Positions 20,212 through 26,104 of a DNA stretch of 64,000 nucleotides are shown in pieces. The position numbers and the translations under genes were made by a program. Source of the DNA: Sedimentimonas flavescens (lineage in GTDB: Bacteria > Pseudomonadota > Alphaproteobacteria > Rhodobacterales > Rhodobacteraceae); NCBI RefSeq assembly GCF_019264375.1, contig NZ_JAHVAI010000005.1:1-64000 (forward strand), in the 5' to 3' direction. Each line of letters begins with the position of its first letter. Positions within the stretch are counted from its first letter, which is position 1. The notes beneath the pieces are model-generated. The model saw only the letters and a list, made by a program, of their open reading frames with translations, searched no databases and was not told the DNA's origin.

Positions 20212-20640
20212 TCAGCCCCCTGACCGGGCGATCTCGGCCAGGGTCAGGGGGCAGCGGGTGCCGCCGTAGAAGGTGTCGATCAGCGCGGTGAAGGGCGCGC
20301 GGGTGGCGGCGTCGGGGCTGGCGGCCTCGAACAGCGTCGCGCAGGAGCGCAGCTTGAGCGCATCGACGGGGCCCATGATCTGCTCGACGGGCGTGCCGGG
20401 ATGGGAGAGGACGGCCTGAGCCGCCTCGATCAGCCGGGCACGTAGGAGCGGGTCGGCCAGATAGTCGCGCGCCTCATCCAGATCGCGCAGCCCGTATTCC
20501 ACCGCCCGCGCGCTGCGCCCGAGCGAGGCCAGTTGCGGGAAGATCCACCAGATCCAATGCGTCAACTTGCGCCCCTGCCGGAGTTCGCGCAGGGCGAGCG
20601 GGAAGTCTCGGGTCTGGGGGGCGTGGAAGCGTTGGGTCAT
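20212..20640 (-). CDS. DUF1810 family protein
   Basis: The 142-residue protein matches the DUF1810 pattern: an N-terminal HWIWWIFPQL motif (T-H-W-I-W-W), then LRDLDEARDYLADP and LKLRSCATLFEAA. The family's function is not established; members are often linked to ADP-ribose or NAD metabolism. It is the last of a run of minus-strand genes that starts at thyX, but a 107-base gap separates it from the preceding small reading frame. Confidence 0.86.
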   Translation of the reverse strand: MTQRFHAPQTRDFPLALRELRQGRKLTHWIWWIFPQLASLGRSARAVEYGLRDLDEARDYLADPLLRARLIEAAQAVLSHPGTPVEQIMGPVDALKLRSCATLFEAASPDAATRAPFTALIDTFYGGTRCPLTLAEIARSGG

Positions 20641-20747
20641 GTAGCTAGTGAAATTTCAGGGCAACCTTGAACAAAGTCTCTATCACTCAAACGCTGCCTG
20701 AGCTTGCCTTTCGCATAGTTTGTTTGGTTCCGATTTCGCACCAAACA

Positions 20748-20891
20748 CTATTTCTTGTCTCGGGTCGTCTTTTTTCCGGAGCTTGTCGTCTGCTGACTAC
20801 TGGCACCATTCTGCCTGTTAATAAATCCAGTCTTGTTGGTTGCAGTGGACTTGCTTGGCGGCTTTGAGCCGGAGTTCTTTTTATCGGACAT
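20748..20891 (-). CDS. Small Lys/Ser/Thr-rich protein of 47 residues (candidate)
   Basis: A 48-codon frame starts with ATG at 20891, 8 bases after the stop of the upstream membrane-protein gene, with AAGGTG as a possible ribosome site. It ends with TAG at 20748. The product starts MSDKKNSGSK, is very rich in Lys, Ser and Thr with almost no hydrophobic residues, and ends in TTRDKK; it would be disordered and strongly basic. It has no recognisable family. The position and start context argue for a real gene cotranscribed with the membrane protein, but a chance frame cannot be excluded. Confidence 0.5.
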   Translation of the reverse strand: MSDKKNSGSKPPSKSTATNKTGFINRQNGASSQQTTSSGKKTTRDKK

Positions 20892-20899
20892 TATGCACC

Positions 20900-21454
20900 T
20901 TAAAAGATGAAGAGAAGCCATGCAGGAACTAGTGCCACAGAACAGAATACCGCGAATGTTAAGTCGCGATGAGCGTACTTTATTACATCCTCATTTTGAT
21001 CGAAGAATGCTTCCGACTCCGTGGCGAGCTGAGCGTAGATTTCATTTGGCTCGCGCCCTTTGATGCGCTCGTCAAGAATGAACTTTGCAGAGTGGTCGAA
21101 TGTGCAGGCTTTCCAAGAAATGAGGACTCTCGCGGAGAAAAAAAGCGCAAAGAAGAAAAAACCAAACACAATCCAAACGGCGGCTCCCATTCCCAGAATG
21201 TGCGGAGGGAGGTTGTGTCCGGATAGGCCTGCTTCGCCTAAGGCCGAAGCCCCGGTAGCCGCTACAAGACCGGTGAGGGCGCTAGTTATTGCCGCTTGAT
21301 TGCGGATATTCTTCAGGTCTTCTTTTTGCGCGGCTAGCTGCCTAGATGCAATTTCGAAGACCTCTCTCGAGAAGCCTTCAGTTTTCTTGGCATCTGTAAT
21401 GCTACTATTTTCCCAGCGAGCAACGGGCCGACGTTTCCTCGTCTTGGATCGCAT
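20900..21454 (-). CDS. Hypothetical membrane protein, three hydrophobic segments
   Basis: The 184-residue protein has a basic N-terminus and an amphipathic stretch (ASRQLAAQKEDLKNIRNQ). Hydrophobic segments follow at about 51-70, 85-112 (rich in Phe) and 164-184, running to the very C-terminus. The soluble loop (about 115-160) is charged. Its start lies one base after the thyX stop (TGAGATG), so it is coupled to thyX. Base composition is clearly AT-richer than the neighbours, which suggests acquisition. I do not recognise the family; the build recalls small membrane effectors of defence systems, but no sensor enzyme is adjacent. Confidence 0.72.
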   Translation of the reverse strand: MRSKTRKRRPVARWENSSITDAKKTEGFSREVFEIASRQLAAQKEDLKNIRNQAAITSALTGLVAATGASALGEAGLSGHNLPPHILGMGAAVWIVFGFFFFALFFSARVLISWKACTFDHSAKFILDERIKGREPNEIYAQLATESEAFFDQNEDVIKYAHRDLTFAVFCSVALVPAWLLFIF

Positions 21455-21455
21455 C

Positions 21456-22370
21456 TCACCCCCAGACCTCTACAAACTCCCGCCACTCGCCCTTGGACAT
21501 GCCCGAGGTTTCCTGCGTGACGGCCTCGCCACCCAGACGGCGCTTGAGCACTTCGACGGCCTTGCCCGACAGGTTCACCCCGCCGAGGCGGTAGTCCTCG
21601 AAGGCCGCGTAGGCCTGGGGCACCCAGTCGCGGACGATGTCGCACATGGTCTCGGCATAGACGCGGATCTCGTATTGGGCGTGGCTGTCTGCGCGCAGGC
21701 GCAGGAAGTGGAAGAGGTTGTGCAGGTCGATCTTCCAGTACCACTGGGTGTAGACGTTGGCGGGCAGGTTCATGCGCGCCAACTCGCGCGCGAGGCCGAG
21801 TTTGCCGGTGTCCTCGTCGGGGGTGAGCATGTCCTCGTAATGGTCATAGCTGCGCATCGCATCCTCGCGCAGCAGGTCGAGGACGCGGGCGGCCTCGGCG
21901 CCTTCAAGCACCTGGCCGCGGCCCTGGTTGTTGACCTTCGACTGGGCGGCGAGGGCCTCGGGGGCGGGGATGTAGAACTCGCGGTCGAGGATCGAGTAGC
22001 GGGCCGAGTATTCGTTGACGTTGGCGGTGCGGTGGCGGATCCACTGGCGGGCCACGAAGACCGGGAGTTTGACGTGGAACTTGACCTCGCACATCTCAAA
22101 CGGGGTCGAGTGCCAGTGCCGCATGAGGTAGCGGATCAGGCCCTTGTCGTCAGAAACGGCCTTGGTGCCCTTGCCGTAGCTGACGCGGGCGGCCTGACAA
22201 ATCGCGGCGTCGTCGCCCATGTAGTCGATGACCCGTACCAGCCCGTGATCGAGTACCTCATGGGCGGTGTAGAGGCGGGCCTCCATCCCCGGCGAGGTGG
22301 CGCGCAGCGTGGTCTGGGGCTGGGCGCGCTGCGCCTCGATCTCGGCGAGCTGTTCGGGGGTAAGCGACAT
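21456..22370 (-). CDS. thyX: FAD-dependent thymidylate synthase
   Basis: The 304-residue enzyme makes dTMP from dUMP with methylene-tetrahydrofolate and FAD/NADPH. The ThyX signature [14 protein letters not shown] is at residues 112-125. The protein is somewhat longer than minimal ThyX, as in other alphaproteobacteria. It is the first gene of a minus-strand unit with the membrane protein and is divergent from the lipoprotein/Slam pair. Confidence 0.96.
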
Positions 22371-22564
22371 GAGGTTCCTCCGGCGAATAGAATCGGGACG
22401 ACTATATATGCGATATGCGCTTCACGAAACCGCGAGATGATGTGGCTCGCGCGCGAGGTGTCGCAGCAGGGGCACGGCCCTCGCGCAAAAGTGTTGAAGA
22501 ATTGACTTTTGAAGGCGGTTTCGGCACCCTTGCCCTCAAGGCAGGAACACAGAAAGAAAACATA

Positions 22565-23506
22565 ATGAGCAAGCATCTTCTCTCGATCATTGCGCTTTGC
22601 GCTTTGACCGCTTGCAGCGGGGCCGCTGTTGTTGGGCCGGCTGACGGGACACCGCCGGATGGTTCTACGGATACTCCGAACGGCAGCGGCTCGCTGAACG
22701 GGGCCGATCTCAACATTCCCAGCGATCTGTTGGTGAACCTGGAATCCGTTGTCTACGATCCATCGGGCGAAACGCTGCAGGTCGAAATTGCGGGCCTTGA
22801 CTCGACTCCGGCGCTCGTTCCCTATGTGCGCGACCCGGACCTCGATGTCGCTGGCTTCCAGGCCTACCGCATTCAGGAAGACGCGCTAGACCGCCTGTTC
22901 ATCGCGCTTGCGAAGACCTCGACCGATGGCTCGGTGAGCGCGGTCACGGTGGCTGATGGTGGTCAGTTTAATAGGTACTTCGCTGGTGGTATTTACGCGC
23001 GCAGCGGGGATTACGATCCGCCGAGCGGGCAGGTTTCCTATGCTGGCAGATATGCGGGCTTGACCAACATTAAGGCCGATCCGAGCCTGACGACGAACAA
23101 GCTGATCGACCCGGCCGGTAGCGCTTCCGTCAATTGGCCCGATCAGCCCTCGCGCGTTGAGGGGAAGGTTTTCCTCGATGCAAACTTTAGTAAGAACCTA
23201 GTCAACGGCGCCGTTTATGATCGCTGGCTGATTGATGCGATCGACACTCCGATCGCGCTCGATGATGTGATCCTTGTCTCGACCAGCATTGCATCAGATG
23301 GTACGTTCGCAGGGACGGCTGAAGACGACACCGATCAAAAGGCCATTGGCTCATATGGTGGTGTCTTCGGTGGAGTGGGCGCAAACTCGGTTGCGGGCGC
23401 CGTTCATTTGGAAGATCACATTGAAATCTGGGAGAAGGAACAAGAACACGGGGTCTTCGTGCTTGAGCAATGTACCCCTGGGGAGCCCGGCTGCGGCACG
23501 CCCTAA
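22565..23506 (+). CDS. Slam-linked surface lipoprotein with TbpB-like barrel pattern
   Basis: The 313-residue lipoprotein has a signal peptide with lipobox LTAC (lipidated Cys17), then a Gly/Pro/Ser/Thr linker (about 18-45). The rest is strand-like. The C-terminal half alternates Gly and aromatic residues (QVSYAGRYAGL, EGKVFLDANFSKNLVNGAVYD, DGTFAGTAED, GSYGGVFGGVGANSVAGAVHLED), the pattern of the 8-stranded barrel of transferrin-binding-protein-B-like lipoproteins. The neighbouring gene encodes a Slam-type translocator 3 bases downstream, which strongly suggests this is its substrate and is shown on the cell surface. The ligand is unknown. The ATG at 22565 puts the signal first. Confidence 0.82.
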   Translation: MSKHLLSIIALCALTACSGAAVVGPADGTPPDGSTDTPNGSGSLNGADLNIPSDLLVNLESVVYDPSGETLQVEIAGLDSTPALVPYVRDPDLDVAGFQAYRIQEDALDRLFIALAKTSTDGSVSAVTVADGGQFNRYFAGGIYARSGDYDPPSGQVSYAGRYAGLTNIKADPSLTTNKLIDPAGSASVNWPDQPSRVEGKVFLDANFSKNLVNGAVYDRWLIDAIDTPIALDDVILVSTSIASDGTFAGTAEDDTDQKAIGSYGGVFGGVGANSVAGAVHLEDHIEIWEKEQEHGVFVLEQCTPGEPGCGTP

Positions 23507-23509
23507 GCG

Positions 23510-24940
23510 ATGTTTCGCGATCGCTTGATATGTCTTGCTGCCGTCCTGCTCGCTTCAGCGAGCGGGGCGGTTTGCGCTGAAGAGACCGCTGGCGTCCCGA
23601 TCTCCCAAGCTCCGCCGGGGCAACTGGAAATCGCAGCGGCGGCCATGGCAAGCGCGGGCCATTCAGCTGAGGCCATGTCGCTGGCCGAGGCGATCCTGCT
23701 TAGAGACCCGGACAGTGCCCTTGCGCATTACATCGTCGCGCGCGAGATGCTTGCAGCGGGAAACACCGATGTTGCGCGTCAGGCGGCCTCCAGAAGCTTC
23801 TCGGGGGCGGGGACCGATCGCCAGCATTATGAGGCGGCGATATTGGCCGCCAAGGTCGCTTTGGCGGATGAGCGCTGGATCGCCGCGCAGTATTGGGCAC
23901 GGCACGCGATTCAATATGCGCCGGATGTCCCCAGCAAAGATCTTGCGGTGCAGGACTATTATCGCCTGCGCAGTGAATCGCCCTGGAACTGGCGTTTGCG
24001 TTTCGGCGTCAAGCCCTCGAGCAACGTTAACGGAGGCGCGGAGGACCGATCGAACGTCATTGACGGATACGATGCAGTCGGTGTGCTAAGCGATGATGCC
24101 CTCGCGCTGTCAGGGATTGTCGGCACCCTTAACTTCGATACAAACTACCGGATCCGCCGCACCGAAAAGAGCCAGACTTATCTCGGCGCAGAGTTGTATT
24201 TGCGTGGTGTGGAGTTGTCGGGCTCACCCAAACTGACGCCGTTCCACTTGCCGGGAACTCCTGCGCCTGCCTCGGTCGAGATACGCAACTCCGACTATTC
24301 GATGGTTGCACTGGGCATGAACCTTTCGCACCGGCAGGTGCTTGATAGGTCGACGCAGTTTACCGCGTCGCTTTCCGGGGGACAGATGTGGCAGGGCGGT
24401 GATCCGGGCTACGGCTATGCGGGAGCGAGCCTGCGCGCAGACCGTAGACTGGGCCAAGCCCCTTCGGCGACCAGGCTGAGCTTTGGCTTGGGTGTCGAGC
24501 GGCGCGACTGGAACGACTCGGCGCAGAAAGATACTCGGAGCGAATTGATTTTCGGCCTGACACGGGTTTTGTCGAGCGGGTCGCTATCCGGGACCATGGA
24601 ATTGCTGGATGTGGCATCGAACAACGATCAGGCGCGCTCTTGGTCGGTTACGGGTTCACTCCGATACGAGCCGAACAAACACATTGGGCCGCTGGCCTAT
24701 GCATTTTCCGCGGGCGCGATCAAAACGGTTTATCCCGACTACAGTGTCCTTTGGATGCATCCGGAGGGTGGCCGGCAGGACGAAACCGTCTATGGTGAGG
24801 TCGGTTTCTGGGCGCCGGACTATGGCTATGCCGGATTCACCCCCGAGTTTCGCCTTCAGGCGATGCAGGTGGACAGTAACATCAGTCGCTTCACCCGCTC
24901 CGAGTTTTCGCTGGCGGTGGGGTTGCGTTCTAGCTTCTAG
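23510..24940 (+). CDS. Surface lipoprotein assembly modifier (Slam, DUF560) outer-membrane protein
   Basis: The 476-residue protein has a signal peptide (cleavage near residue 23, AVCA/EE). A helical TPR-like periplasmic domain follows (about 30-155). The rest, from WNWRLRFGVKPSSNVNGG (about 159-176), is a beta-barrel with alternating strands that ends in a terminal Phe, the usual outer-membrane insertion signal. The PSSNVNGG stretch is typical of the DUF560 barrel start. Slam proteins move surface lipoproteins or haemophores across the outer membrane. It follows the lipoprotein gene after 3 bases. The recognition is by architecture and motif, not by a search. Confidence 0.83.
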   Translation: MFRDRLICLAAVLLASASGAVCAEETAGVPISQAPPGQLEIAAAAMASAGHSAEAMSLAEAILLRDPDSALAHYIVAREMLAAGNTDVARQAASRSFSGAGTDRQHYEAAILAAKVALADERWIAAQYWARHAIQYAPDVPSKDLAVQDYYRLRSESPWNWRLRFGVKPSSNVNGGAEDRSNVIDGYDAVGVLSDDALALSGIVGTLNFDTNYRIRRTEKSQTYLGAELYLRGVELSGSPKLTPFHLPGTPAPASVEIRNSDYSMVALGMNLSHRQVLDRSTQFTASLSGGQMWQGGDPGYGYAGASLRADRRLGQAPSATRLSFGLGVERRDWNDSAQKDTRSELIFGLTRVLSSGSLSGTMELLDVASNNDQARSWSVTGSLRYEPNKHIGPLAYAFSAGAIKTVYPDYSVLWMHPEGGRQDETVYGEVGFWAPDYGYAGFTPEFRLQAMQVDSNISRFTRSEFSLAVGLRSSF

Positions 24941-24994
24941 GCCTTGCAGCATTGATCCGGCGGGTTAGGTTCGGATCAGGCGAAGGAGGCCGCG

Positions 24995-25423
24995 ATGAAG
25001 ATCAGATATCTGCACACGATGGTCCGGGTTCTCGACCTGGACAAGAGCCTGGCGTTTTACGCGCTGCTGGGGCTGAAGGAGACGCGTCGCTACGAGAGCG
25101 AGCAGGGCCGCTTTACGCTGGTTTTCATGGCGCCAGAGGGGCAGGAGAAGTGCCCGGTCGAACTGACTTGGAATTGGGATGGCGATACGGGGTTGCCCTC
25201 GGACAGCCGGCATTTCGGGCATCTGGCCTATGAGGTCGAGGATATCTACGCGATGTGCCAGCTCCTGATGGACAATGGTGTGACGATCAACCGTCCGCCG
25301 CGCGACGGGCGGATGGCCTTTGTGCGCTCGCCCGACAATGTCTCGATCGAGCTGTTGCAGGCGGGGGGGGCGCTGGCCCCGGCCGAGCCTTGGGTCAGCA
25401 TGGAGAACACGGGCCACTGGTGA
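24995..25423 (+). CDS. gloA: Lactoylglutathione lyase (glyoxalase I)
   Basis: The 142-residue VOC-fold metalloenzyme isomerises the methylglyoxal-glutathione hemithioacetal to S-lactoylglutathione. The four metal ligands are visible: His7, Glu56, His76 and Glu119. Length is normal for the short Ni-type enzymes. An AAGGAGG ribosome site precedes the ATG. The gene converges on pth with no gap. Confidence 0.94.
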   Translation: MKIRYLHTMVRVLDLDKSLAFYALLGLKETRRYESEQGRFTLVFMAPEGQEKCPVELTWNWDGDTGLPSDSRHFGHLAYEVEDIYAMCQLLMDNGVTINRPPRDGRMAFVRSPDNVSIELLQAGGALAPAEPWVSMENTGHW

Positions 25424-26104
25424 TCAGCGTTTGAAGCGATCCGCGAGTTTCTGCAGCGGCGTCCGGGTATCTTCGGGCGCCGTTTGCGTGGCGGCGGGTT
25501 TCGGCTCGGGCGGTTTAGTGCCAGTCGAGGCGCGCGGGGGCGCGGTGCGCAGGCTGACGGCGTTCAGAAAACGTGGCCCGTCGCCTGCGGCGAGAGCGGG
25601 GGCGCCGTCCGAGATGCCGCGCAGCAGGTCGTCGAGCCAGTCCTGATCGGCCATGGCGAAATCCGACAGCACATAGGGCGCGACGCGATCCTTGTGGCCG
25701 GGGTGGCCGATGCCGAGGCGGACGCGCGCATAGGCCTCGCCCATATGCTGGTGGATCGAGCGCAGCCCGTTGTGACCCGCGTGCCCGCCGCCCGATTTGA
25801 GGCGGATCTTGCCGGGGGCGAGATCAAGCTCGTCGTGGAAGACGGTGATGGCCTCGGGCGGGATCTTGTAGAAATCGGCGGTGGCGCGCACCGATTGGCC
25901 CGAGAGGTTCATGAAAGTTTCGGGTTTGAGTAGGATGACGCGGGCCGAACCGAAGCGGCCCTCGGAGGTGAGGCCCTGGAAGGCCTTACGCCAGGGGCCG
26001 AAGCCGTGATCGGCGGCGATGCGATCGAGCGCCATGAAGCCGATATTGTGCCGGTTGGCGGCGTATTTCGCACCCGGATTCCCGAGGCCGACCCAAAGCT
26101 GCAT
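25424..26104 (-). CDS. pth: Peptidyl-tRNA hydrolase
   Basis: The 226-residue enzyme releases peptides from stalled peptidyl-tRNA. Catalytic His19 (NRHNIGF) and Asp91 (VFHDELD), with Asn9, Asn66 and Asn112 for tRNA binding, are present. Residues after about 190 form a Pro/Thr/Ala-rich tail common in this group. pth and rplY are usually neighbours; here 1.7 kb with two other genes separates them. Confidence 0.96.
   Translation of the reverse strand: MQLWVGLGNPGAKYAANRHNIGFMALDRIAADHGFGPWRKAFQGLTSEGRFGSARVILLKPETFMNLSGQSVRATADFYKIPPEAITVFHDELDLAPGKIRLKSGGGHAGHNGLRSIHQHMGEAYARVRLGIGHPGHKDRVAPYVLSDFAMADQDWLDDLLRGISDGAPALAAGDGPRFLNAVSLRTAPPRASTGTKPPEPKPAATQTAPEDTRTPLQKLADRFKR

Follow-up and report, generated by a model that had tools for sequence, protein, structure and literature searches.

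Which system is encoded by the two adjacent genes between ThyX and a GloA-like glyoxalase in Sedimentimonas flavescens, and how could it work in a genome in which no TonB-dependent receptor was found? The genes lie in the first 64,000 nucleotides of contig NZ_JAHVAI010000005.1 (this stretch is called the window here) and encode a lipoprotein followed by an outer-membrane barrel protein (Table 1). In all probability, they form an export cassette of the type XI secretion system (T11SS), or Slam, type, whose displayed lipoprotein acts free of TonB and whose lipoprotein and translocator are a matched pair exchanged as a unit. For Rhodobacter-type bacteria in general, we lean slightly toward regarding the ThyX–GloA interval as a chromosomal exchange site that swaps whole modules of a cargo and its matched translocator, usually with the promoter element staying in place; regulation would be kept, surface protein and export specificity would change together, and the TonB-free action would be directed at a ligand new for T11SS cargo. 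The locus type itself is already published: a syntenic cluster-3 T11SS locus of Rhodobacteraceae and Roseobacteraceae, which consists of ThyX, a cargo lipoprotein, a T11SS barrel, GloA, and DUF1194, has been described (PMC12282271), and the present pair adds one more example. It is of interest beyond that for its matched, exchanged pairs and for its TonB-free, DUF1194-free setting.

Gene linkage and predicted folds

The two-gene pair is not a chance arrangement, because relatives of the barrel protein are present in 16 of the 18 genomes of the genus (a sample with one genome per species) and because a cargo gene accompanies the barrel gene across the family. Among 248 genomes of the family, again sampled with one genome per species, 123 places in 119 genomes were counted as strong loci of the barrel protein (E up to 3.6e-67; weaker places and second fragments in one genome were excluded), and 108 of these have a cargo gene no more than 1.5 kb upstream in the same orientation, in 104 cases at a distance of at most 120 bp. 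The sequence-only reading, an earlier interpretation made without database searches, had suggested co-occurrence across Rhodobacteraceae as a check of the pair, and this co-occurrence was found: the barrel protein is present in 144 genomes and the cargo in 113, none of which lacks the barrel protein (113/144 genomes with the barrel protein versus 0/104 without it; Fisher's exact test, 5e-42). To the family-specific profiles A1 and A2, 8 and 9 of the 248 genomes, respectively, contributed rows of their own, and these genomes match by construction. When 114 of the listed cargo places were typed against the strong barrel loci, in five cargo-bearing genomes the typed places included no neighboring pair; at the 15 of 123 loci without an upstream cargo, the gene may have been lost or have diverged too far, or these loci may represent contig ends or second copies. 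Carriers of the cassette include Rhodobacter capsulatus, R. viridis, R. aestuarii, Sinirhodobacter species, and Defluviimonas nitratireducens. In PMC12282271, a TbpBBD domain is given for 8 of 145 loci, and the cargoes are assigned to seven clusters with 31 open reading frames (ORFs). Since a cargo was recognized here at 108 of 123 loci, its scarcity in the figures given there is mostly a matter of detection.

Both reading frames were located exactly where they had been proposed, a lipoprotein with lipobox Cys17 and a second gene after a gap of 3 bases. The TbpB-like barrel suspected in the later part of the lipoprotein is likewise recovered in the AlphaFold2 model. This model, computed from 12 sequences (mean predicted local distance difference test, pLDDT, 80.7; predicted template modeling score, pTM, 0.80; low confidence over residues 1–39), consists of a handle of strands and a subsequent eight-stranded barrel with its strands between residues 156 and 302. 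In Foldseek searches of the PDB, the best matches were the C-lobe of TbpB (E 1.2e-7) and fHbp (E 1.3e-7), and according to VIA-align the closest fold is that of fHbp (8bk2; Z 16.8, root mean square deviation 2.3, 163 aligned residues), followed by the hemophilins (Z 13.4–13.9, about 190–204 aligned residues), the C-terminal domain of NHBA (Z 12.1), for which the likeness is one of fold alone, HpuA (about 11.2), and the TbpB C-lobe (11.2). Although fHbp is the closest fold, the identity to it is 11–17% in the listed rows, and no counterpart of its ligand, factor H, exists here. TbpB, HpuA, fHbp, and hemophilin are described as Slam/T11SS cargoes in the literature (PMC12282271, PMC8406197, PMC5449769, PMC7857515).

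The window lipoprotein alone has no Pfam match, and slam_lipo (NF041636) matches its residues 194–284 with an E-value of 0.0016 and 18.7 bits (curated cut-off 80). Of the 22 aligned cargoes, the window protein included, 17 match slam_lipo at E ≤0.1 (best 1.2e-6), seven match TbpB_B_D (PF01298) at the same threshold (best 6.2e-7), and five match FHBP_C; a search of the PDB with the cargo-family profile retrieved fHbp, weakly (E 0.016). The lipobox Cys is present in all 22 rows. It is followed by a poorly conserved linker predicted to be disordered (residues 18–40), and behind the last barrel strand Cys303 and Cys310, found in 12/12 close and 18/22 wider relatives, probably close a short loop by a disulfide bond. 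By analogy with known cargoes, the eight-stranded barrel is expected to be the part that the translocator recognizes. Type C cargoes (see below) lack the Cys303/Cys310 pair and have two cysteines near the mature N-terminus instead.

For the second protein, the tetratricopeptide repeat (TPR)-like periplasmic domain and the C-terminal barrel that had been predicted earlier correspond, in the AlphaFold2 model (pLDDT 79.4, pTM 0.67), to seven helices (residues 36–156) and 14 strands (residues 159–474). The helices align with TPR domains in VIA-align (Z about 16), and the best matches of the barrel are CymA (Z 19.3) and OmpG (Z 19.0), both of which are 14-strand monomeric pores. Slam proteins are built in this way, from a TPR domain and a 14-strand barrel (PMC5449769, Fig. 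1 legend; PMC7857515). The PSSNVNGG-type motif (residues 169–176) and the C-terminal Phe476 were confirmed as well; N172, N174, and G176 of the motif are invariant and P169 and S170 nearly invariant in 23 aligned rows. The window protein scores 14.4 bits against SlipAM (PF04575; E 0.027, curated cut-off 22) and 15.3 bits against TPR_14 (cut-off 23.5), and 21 of the 23 aligned relatives, the window protein among them, match SlipAM at E ≤0.1 (best 3.1e-5), with TPR_19 in 11 and TPR_16 in eight of the 23. This locus is the single SlipAM match in the whole genome at E up to 1, below the cut-off.

Several results weigh against the assignment of the pair to the Slam/T11SS family. The window lipoprotein scores below the curated cut-offs of slam_lipo and TbpB_B_D and the barrel protein below that of SlipAM, and the type B and C cargoes, taken singly, give no Pfam match; they are part of the cargo profile by construction, align with the family, and have the same lipobox. 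A genome-wide slam_lipo search gave no match and was silent on the controls also, hence it is uninformative. Single-sequence searches of the PDB with either protein returned nothing significant, and the barrel-protein profile retrieved mainly TPR-type proteins, with no recognizable match through the barrel. Among the fold matches listed there is no Slam/T11SS translocator structure, an absence which is in itself uninformative, and the translocator is therefore placed by architecture, relatives, and linkage. Fold, the profile matches of the relatives, and gene linkage support the interpretation, already put forward by the sequence-only reading, of the pair as a Slam/T11SS-type translocator with a lipoprotein cargo of the TbpB/fHbp/hemophilin fold.

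A second T11SS-type barrel gene, about 28–30% identical, is present in two genomes of the genus (G015, locus L018; G011, locus L019). It adjoins a Crp-family regulator and a protein of 407–408 amino acids without Pfam match, and no barrel lipoprotein ORF was seen directly upstream.

Replacement of the pair between ThyX and GloA

The site between ThyX and GloA exists in four states among the 18 genomes of the genus: 13 contain a type A cassette, G014 a type B cassette, G009 and G017 a type C cassette, and in G005 and G010 the site is empty, with ThyX and GloA only 130 and 137 bp apart, respectively. One of the 13, G013, was assigned to type A by matches to the cargo and to part of the barrel protein; its contig (3,323 bases) breaks off inside the barrel gene. 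The cargo gene of this genome (L032, 1237–2229) has one in-frame TAG, so that either the gene is broken or the assembly is wrong there.

In two genome comparisons across the site, the cassette is far more diverged than the flanking genes. Between G001 (type A) and G014, ThyX is 98% and GloA and the adjacent peptidyl-tRNA hydrolase (Pth) are each 94% identical, with a synonymous divergence (dS) of about 0.5, versus 38% identity of the cargoes and 34% of the barrel proteins. Between the window and its sister genome G007, dS reaches 1.52 in the cargo gene and 1.79 in the barrel gene, values near saturation (dS above about 1.5), compared to 0.13–0.40 in six flanking genes; the ratio of nonsynonymous to synonymous divergence (dN/dS) of the pair is 0.12–0.13. 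In both comparisons, DNA identity drops where the cargo gene begins and rises again past the barrel gene.

Phylogenies point in the same direction for types B and C. Trees and covariation were calculated from 17 genus loci and from the 30 best-scoring family loci minus those of the window genome and G006 (28 loci); of these 45 loci, the 42 with all three genes were used, and the genus rows match the family profiles by construction. In the cargo and the barrel tree, G014, G009, and G017 are grouped with two other genera (G033, G281) with 100% support, and these cassette trees require at least three genus-label changes. The GloA tree, by comparison, places G014 with G001 (99/91), and G009 joins these two (98/88). 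The evolution of cargo and barrel protein is also coupled: their distances correlate with 0.73, or 0.72 after removal of the GloA distance, a value reached in 0 of 5000 permutations, and with 0.64 when one row per genus is retained. Judged from these comparisons, lipoprotein and translocator are a matched pair, and the whole pair is replaced at the site between ThyX and GloA; homologous exchange via the flanks is probably the route of replacement. On plasmids, one distant match to the barrel protein (30% identity) was found among 72,556 records, and thus there is no sign of a plasmid carrier. A term search of the main text of PMC12282271 found no mention of unit replacement or of empty sites.

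Three features of the trees speak against replacement. Firstly, the GloA tree is weakly resolved and itself contains five genus-label changes, one of which is forced by well-supported branches. Secondly, it leaves G017 on a low-support fork and separates G011 and G015 from the genus. Thirdly, the window and G007 alleles remain mutual nearest relatives in the sampled trees, and for this reason it is the dS contrast alone that argues for an exchange in this case. Their close relationship would also be expected if the cassette had diverged in place, through rapid evolution or under relaxed constraint. Such a process would have to account, however, for a dS raised about 4- to 13-fold over six flanking genes at a low dN/dS, for the grouping of the G014, G009, and G017 pairs with other genera, and for two genomes with clean empty sites. 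Moreover, cassette dS equals flank dS in the close pairs and trios G006/G008 and G002/G003/G004, so that the cassette has no generally high intrinsic rate and its change is episodic. We therefore consider divergence in place improbable and prefer replacement of the pair as a unit.

The flanks themselves vary in one respect: at the type A loci of G011 (L095) and G015 (L098), the left neighbor is ThyA (PF00303, E 4.6e-116) in place of ThyX. No ThyX match was obtained in either genome, which makes this a natural exchange of thymidylate synthases beside the cassette.

The exported protein and DUF1194

The published cluster-3 locus resembles the window in its ThyX, its cargo with an eight-strand barrel (282–375 amino acids in 10 of the 11 drawn loci versus 313 here), its T11SS protein, and its lactoylglutathione lyase, but differs in DUF1194, which is present in 11 of 11 drawn loci and in 102 of 145 loci overall (PMC12282271, section 18 and Fig. 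8 legend). That study left open whether a barrel cargo is usual for these marine T11SS or whether they serve another export, for example of DUF1194 proteins. In the window genome, DUF1194 has no match. Scored as genome-wide presence rather than adjacency, it occurs in 195 of the 248 family genomes, comprising 115 of the 144 with and 80 of the 104 without the barrel protein, and is independent of the barrel protein (p 0.64) as well as of the cargo (p 0.35), with 21 of the 113 cargo-bearing genomes lacking it. Because of its absence from the window genome and this independence, DUF1194 is not required for the lipoprotein–translocator pair. On paper, a cargo at 108 of 123 loci and a DUF1194-free pair answer much of the cargo question left open in PMC12282271.

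One could still envisage that the lipoprotein stays in the periplasm and that the barrel protein exports something else, either DUF1194 proteins, whose gene lies shortly downstream of the barrel gene in several genomes, or a polysaccharide. BcsC and PelB, which export polysaccharide and likewise combine a TPR region with a barrel, are the barrel protein's top whole-chain matches in Foldseek and would agree with the latter. The barrel of BcsC has 16 strands, however, as opposed to the 14 predicted here. The same difference separates PgaA (16 strands) from the T11SS family, which has 14 (PMC8406197). Furthermore, no polysaccharide synthase was recognized in ten scanned neighbor genes (two of them without Pfam match), the distribution of DUF1194 argues against these proteins as the substrate, and the barrel gene is linked to and covaries with the lipoprotein. 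Export of a substrate other than the lipoprotein is thus highly improbable, and we retain the lipoprotein as the cargo.

TonB receptors and the ligand

The Slam1 and Slam2 systems of Neisseria, with TbpB, LbpB, and HpuA, likewise combine a TPR domain and a 14-strand barrel with a lipobox-containing cargo of eight-strand-barrel fold, often encoded adjacently (PMC5449769, PMC7857515). The window differs from them in having a single cargo barrel, a similarity below curated cut-offs, and no detected TonB-dependent receptor. The lack of a receptor gene beside the pair had been noted from the sequence, and it now extends to the whole genome: the TonB-dependent receptor profiles PF00593 and PF07715 have no match in the window genome, which is listed as 100% complete, and both match in three of 14 control genomes (E. 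coli, Caulobacter, and a Bacteroides). TonB receptors are also described as rare beside cluster-3 loci (PMC12282271).

Because such receptors were not found genome-wide, a TbpB/HpuA mode of action appears unlikely in this genome. In such a system, the surface lipoprotein would capture an iron or heme carrier and pass it on to a TonB-dependent receptor, a notion to which the shared fold of the cargo with TbpB, HpuA, and hemophilin lends some weight. Besides a receptor barrel or plug, however, the appropriate residues are missing: the handle of the window protein (residues 41–155) is devoid of His, Cys, Met, and Trp, and over residues 18–155 there is neither a His in the window protein nor an invariant His across 12 relatives. 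The heme ligand of hemophilin is a His. As an explanation of the cassette, delivery to a receptor is accordingly given a very small probability. Binding of heme or a metal without any TonB receptor, for instance as sequestration at the surface by a hemophore or metal-binding lipoprotein, fares somewhat better, with hemophilins among the best fold matches and with hemophores and metal-binding proteins among the verified T11SS cargoes (PMC12282271). We still consider it unlikely, given the handle without a conserved His/Cys/Met site and given that co-occurrences with TonB and heme/iron functions are lacking in this locus cluster as described in PMC12282271. Hemophilin/Hrp systems (T11SS-1B) share the handle and the single barrel fold (Z about 13.5–13.9), but their cargoes are soluble heme-binding proteins with a non-lipid signal peptide (PMC8406197), whereas the window cargo carries a lipobox, and its handle is free of His.

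In the absence of a detectable TonB-dependent receptor in the genome, the displayed lipoprotein most likely acts alone. This would not be without precedent: fHbp, the closest fold, works without a TonB receptor, and so does NilC, another Slam/T11SS cargo. Between the window and G007, identity is 84% in the handle (residues 58–155), 68% in the cargo barrel, and 72% in the translocator barrel; in this one comparison, a conserved handle next to diverged barrels fits a retained ligand and a drifting export interface. The missing TonB receptor points to a use of T11SS beyond iron and heme piracy. Folate or nickel uptake, floated from the neighboring genes in PMC12282271, was set aside as a function of the cassette, as ThyX and GloA remain where the cassette is missing (G005, G010).

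Proposed route of export and exchange

Following the general route of lipoprotein export, the lipoprotein would leave the cytoplasm via Sec, be lipidated at Cys17, and be carried by the Lol route to the periplasmic face of the outer membrane. There, by analogy to Slam, the TPR domain of the second protein would receive it, and the 14-strand barrel would transfer it to the outer face, with the C-terminal eight-stranded barrel of the cargo serving as passport. Surface display by the barrel protein is thus inferred by analogy; the handle domain is predicted to be exposed on a flexible linker about 25 residues long. The displayed protein might bind an extracellular macromolecule or surface, and function in attachment, protection, or capture like fHbp or NilC rather than feed an iron receptor. 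Behind a promoter-like element that mostly stays the same, both genes would be replaced together, probably through homologous exchange in the ThyX and GloA flanks; a single such event would give a species a new surface protein along with the translocator that matches it. Since the exchanged matched pairs occur in a group that includes the genetically tractable R. capsulatus, the specificity of translocator and cargo is directly testable.

Layout of the locus and upstream element

ThyX lies to the left of the pair in divergent orientation, and the GloA-like glyoxalase, followed by Pth, to its right (Table 1). PF02511 and PF00903 confirm the flanks of the published cluster-3 locus type, and the name lactoylglutathione lyase/GloA for the right flank was adopted from PMC12282271. 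The lipoprotein gene was assigned the start ATG 22565; a longer alternative frame from 22415 is also present, and the downstream start is preferred because, in relatives, GAAAGA box and signal peptide of the lipoprotein both align there. An Rfam scan of positions 20500–25500 found no family.

Table 1. Features of the cassette and its flanks in the window (positions of the forward strand; residues refer to the respective protein)
Feature	Position	Strand	Evidence or remarks
Lipoprotein gene, predicted T11SS/Slam cargo	22565..23506	+	313 aa, signal peptide, lipobox LTAC, Cys17
Flexible linker, residues 18–40	22616..22684	+	pLDDT <50 over residues 1–39; mean identity 0.36
N-terminal handle/effector domain, residues 41–155	22685..23029	+	Strands in AlphaFold2 model
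C-terminal eight-stranded barrel, residues 156–302	23030..23470	+	AlphaFold2 strands; fHbp 1ys5 profile match E 0.016
Cys303 to Cys310, short C-terminal loop	23471..23494	+	Conservation of the Cys pair
Translocator gene, predicted T11SS/Slam outer-membrane protein	23510..24940	+	476 aa, last residue Phe476
Periplasmic helical TPR-type domain, residues 36–156	23615..23977	+	Seven helices (AlphaFold2)
14-stranded outer-membrane barrel, residues 159–474	23984..24931	+	14 strands (AlphaFold2)
PSSNVNGG motif, residues 169–176, within barrel	24014–24037	+	Conservation in 23 rows
Promoter-like element TTGACTTTT-N8-TTTCGGCA upstream of cassette	22502..22526	+	Position and conservation
Ribosome-binding site GAAAGA	22552..22557	+	Same in 15/15 aligned upstream regions
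Left flank, ThyX, flavin-dependent thymidylate synthase, core gene bounding the exchange site	21456..22370	-	Thy1 PF02511 E 3.9e-58
Right flank, GloA-like glyoxalase, core gene bounding the exchange site	24995..25423	+	Glyoxalase PF00903 E 2.5e-16

By position and conservation, the element TTGACTTTT-N8-TTTCGGCA is a candidate promoter. It is recognizable in 14 of 15 aligned loci, which represent types A, B, and C, with G017 as the exception, and a pattern search allowing up to two mismatches located it at the locus in 14 of the 16 cassette-bearing genomes of the genus; the misses are G008, with three mismatches, and again G017. In the empty-site genomes G005 and G010, this search found no match anywhere in the genome. 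The element was rejected as a regulon marker: at up to two mismatches its only match in the window genome is at this locus, compared to two matches of the reversed control, and over the genus there are 21 matches, 14 of them at the cassette, versus 15 of the control. In G017, where the element is missing, ThyX and the type C cassette are separated by about 2.5 kb (L100, 3100–5600) that include a gene for a transposase (rve and Mu-transpos_C_2 domains; PF22483, E 4.2e-26).

A further divergent stretch lies on the far side of ThyX, where the segment 20650–21460 is 26–64% identical between the window genome and G007, and the bordering DUF1810 and ThyX genes remain more than 90% identical. It contains an ORF of 184 amino acids without Pfam match, whose product looks membrane-bound by eye.

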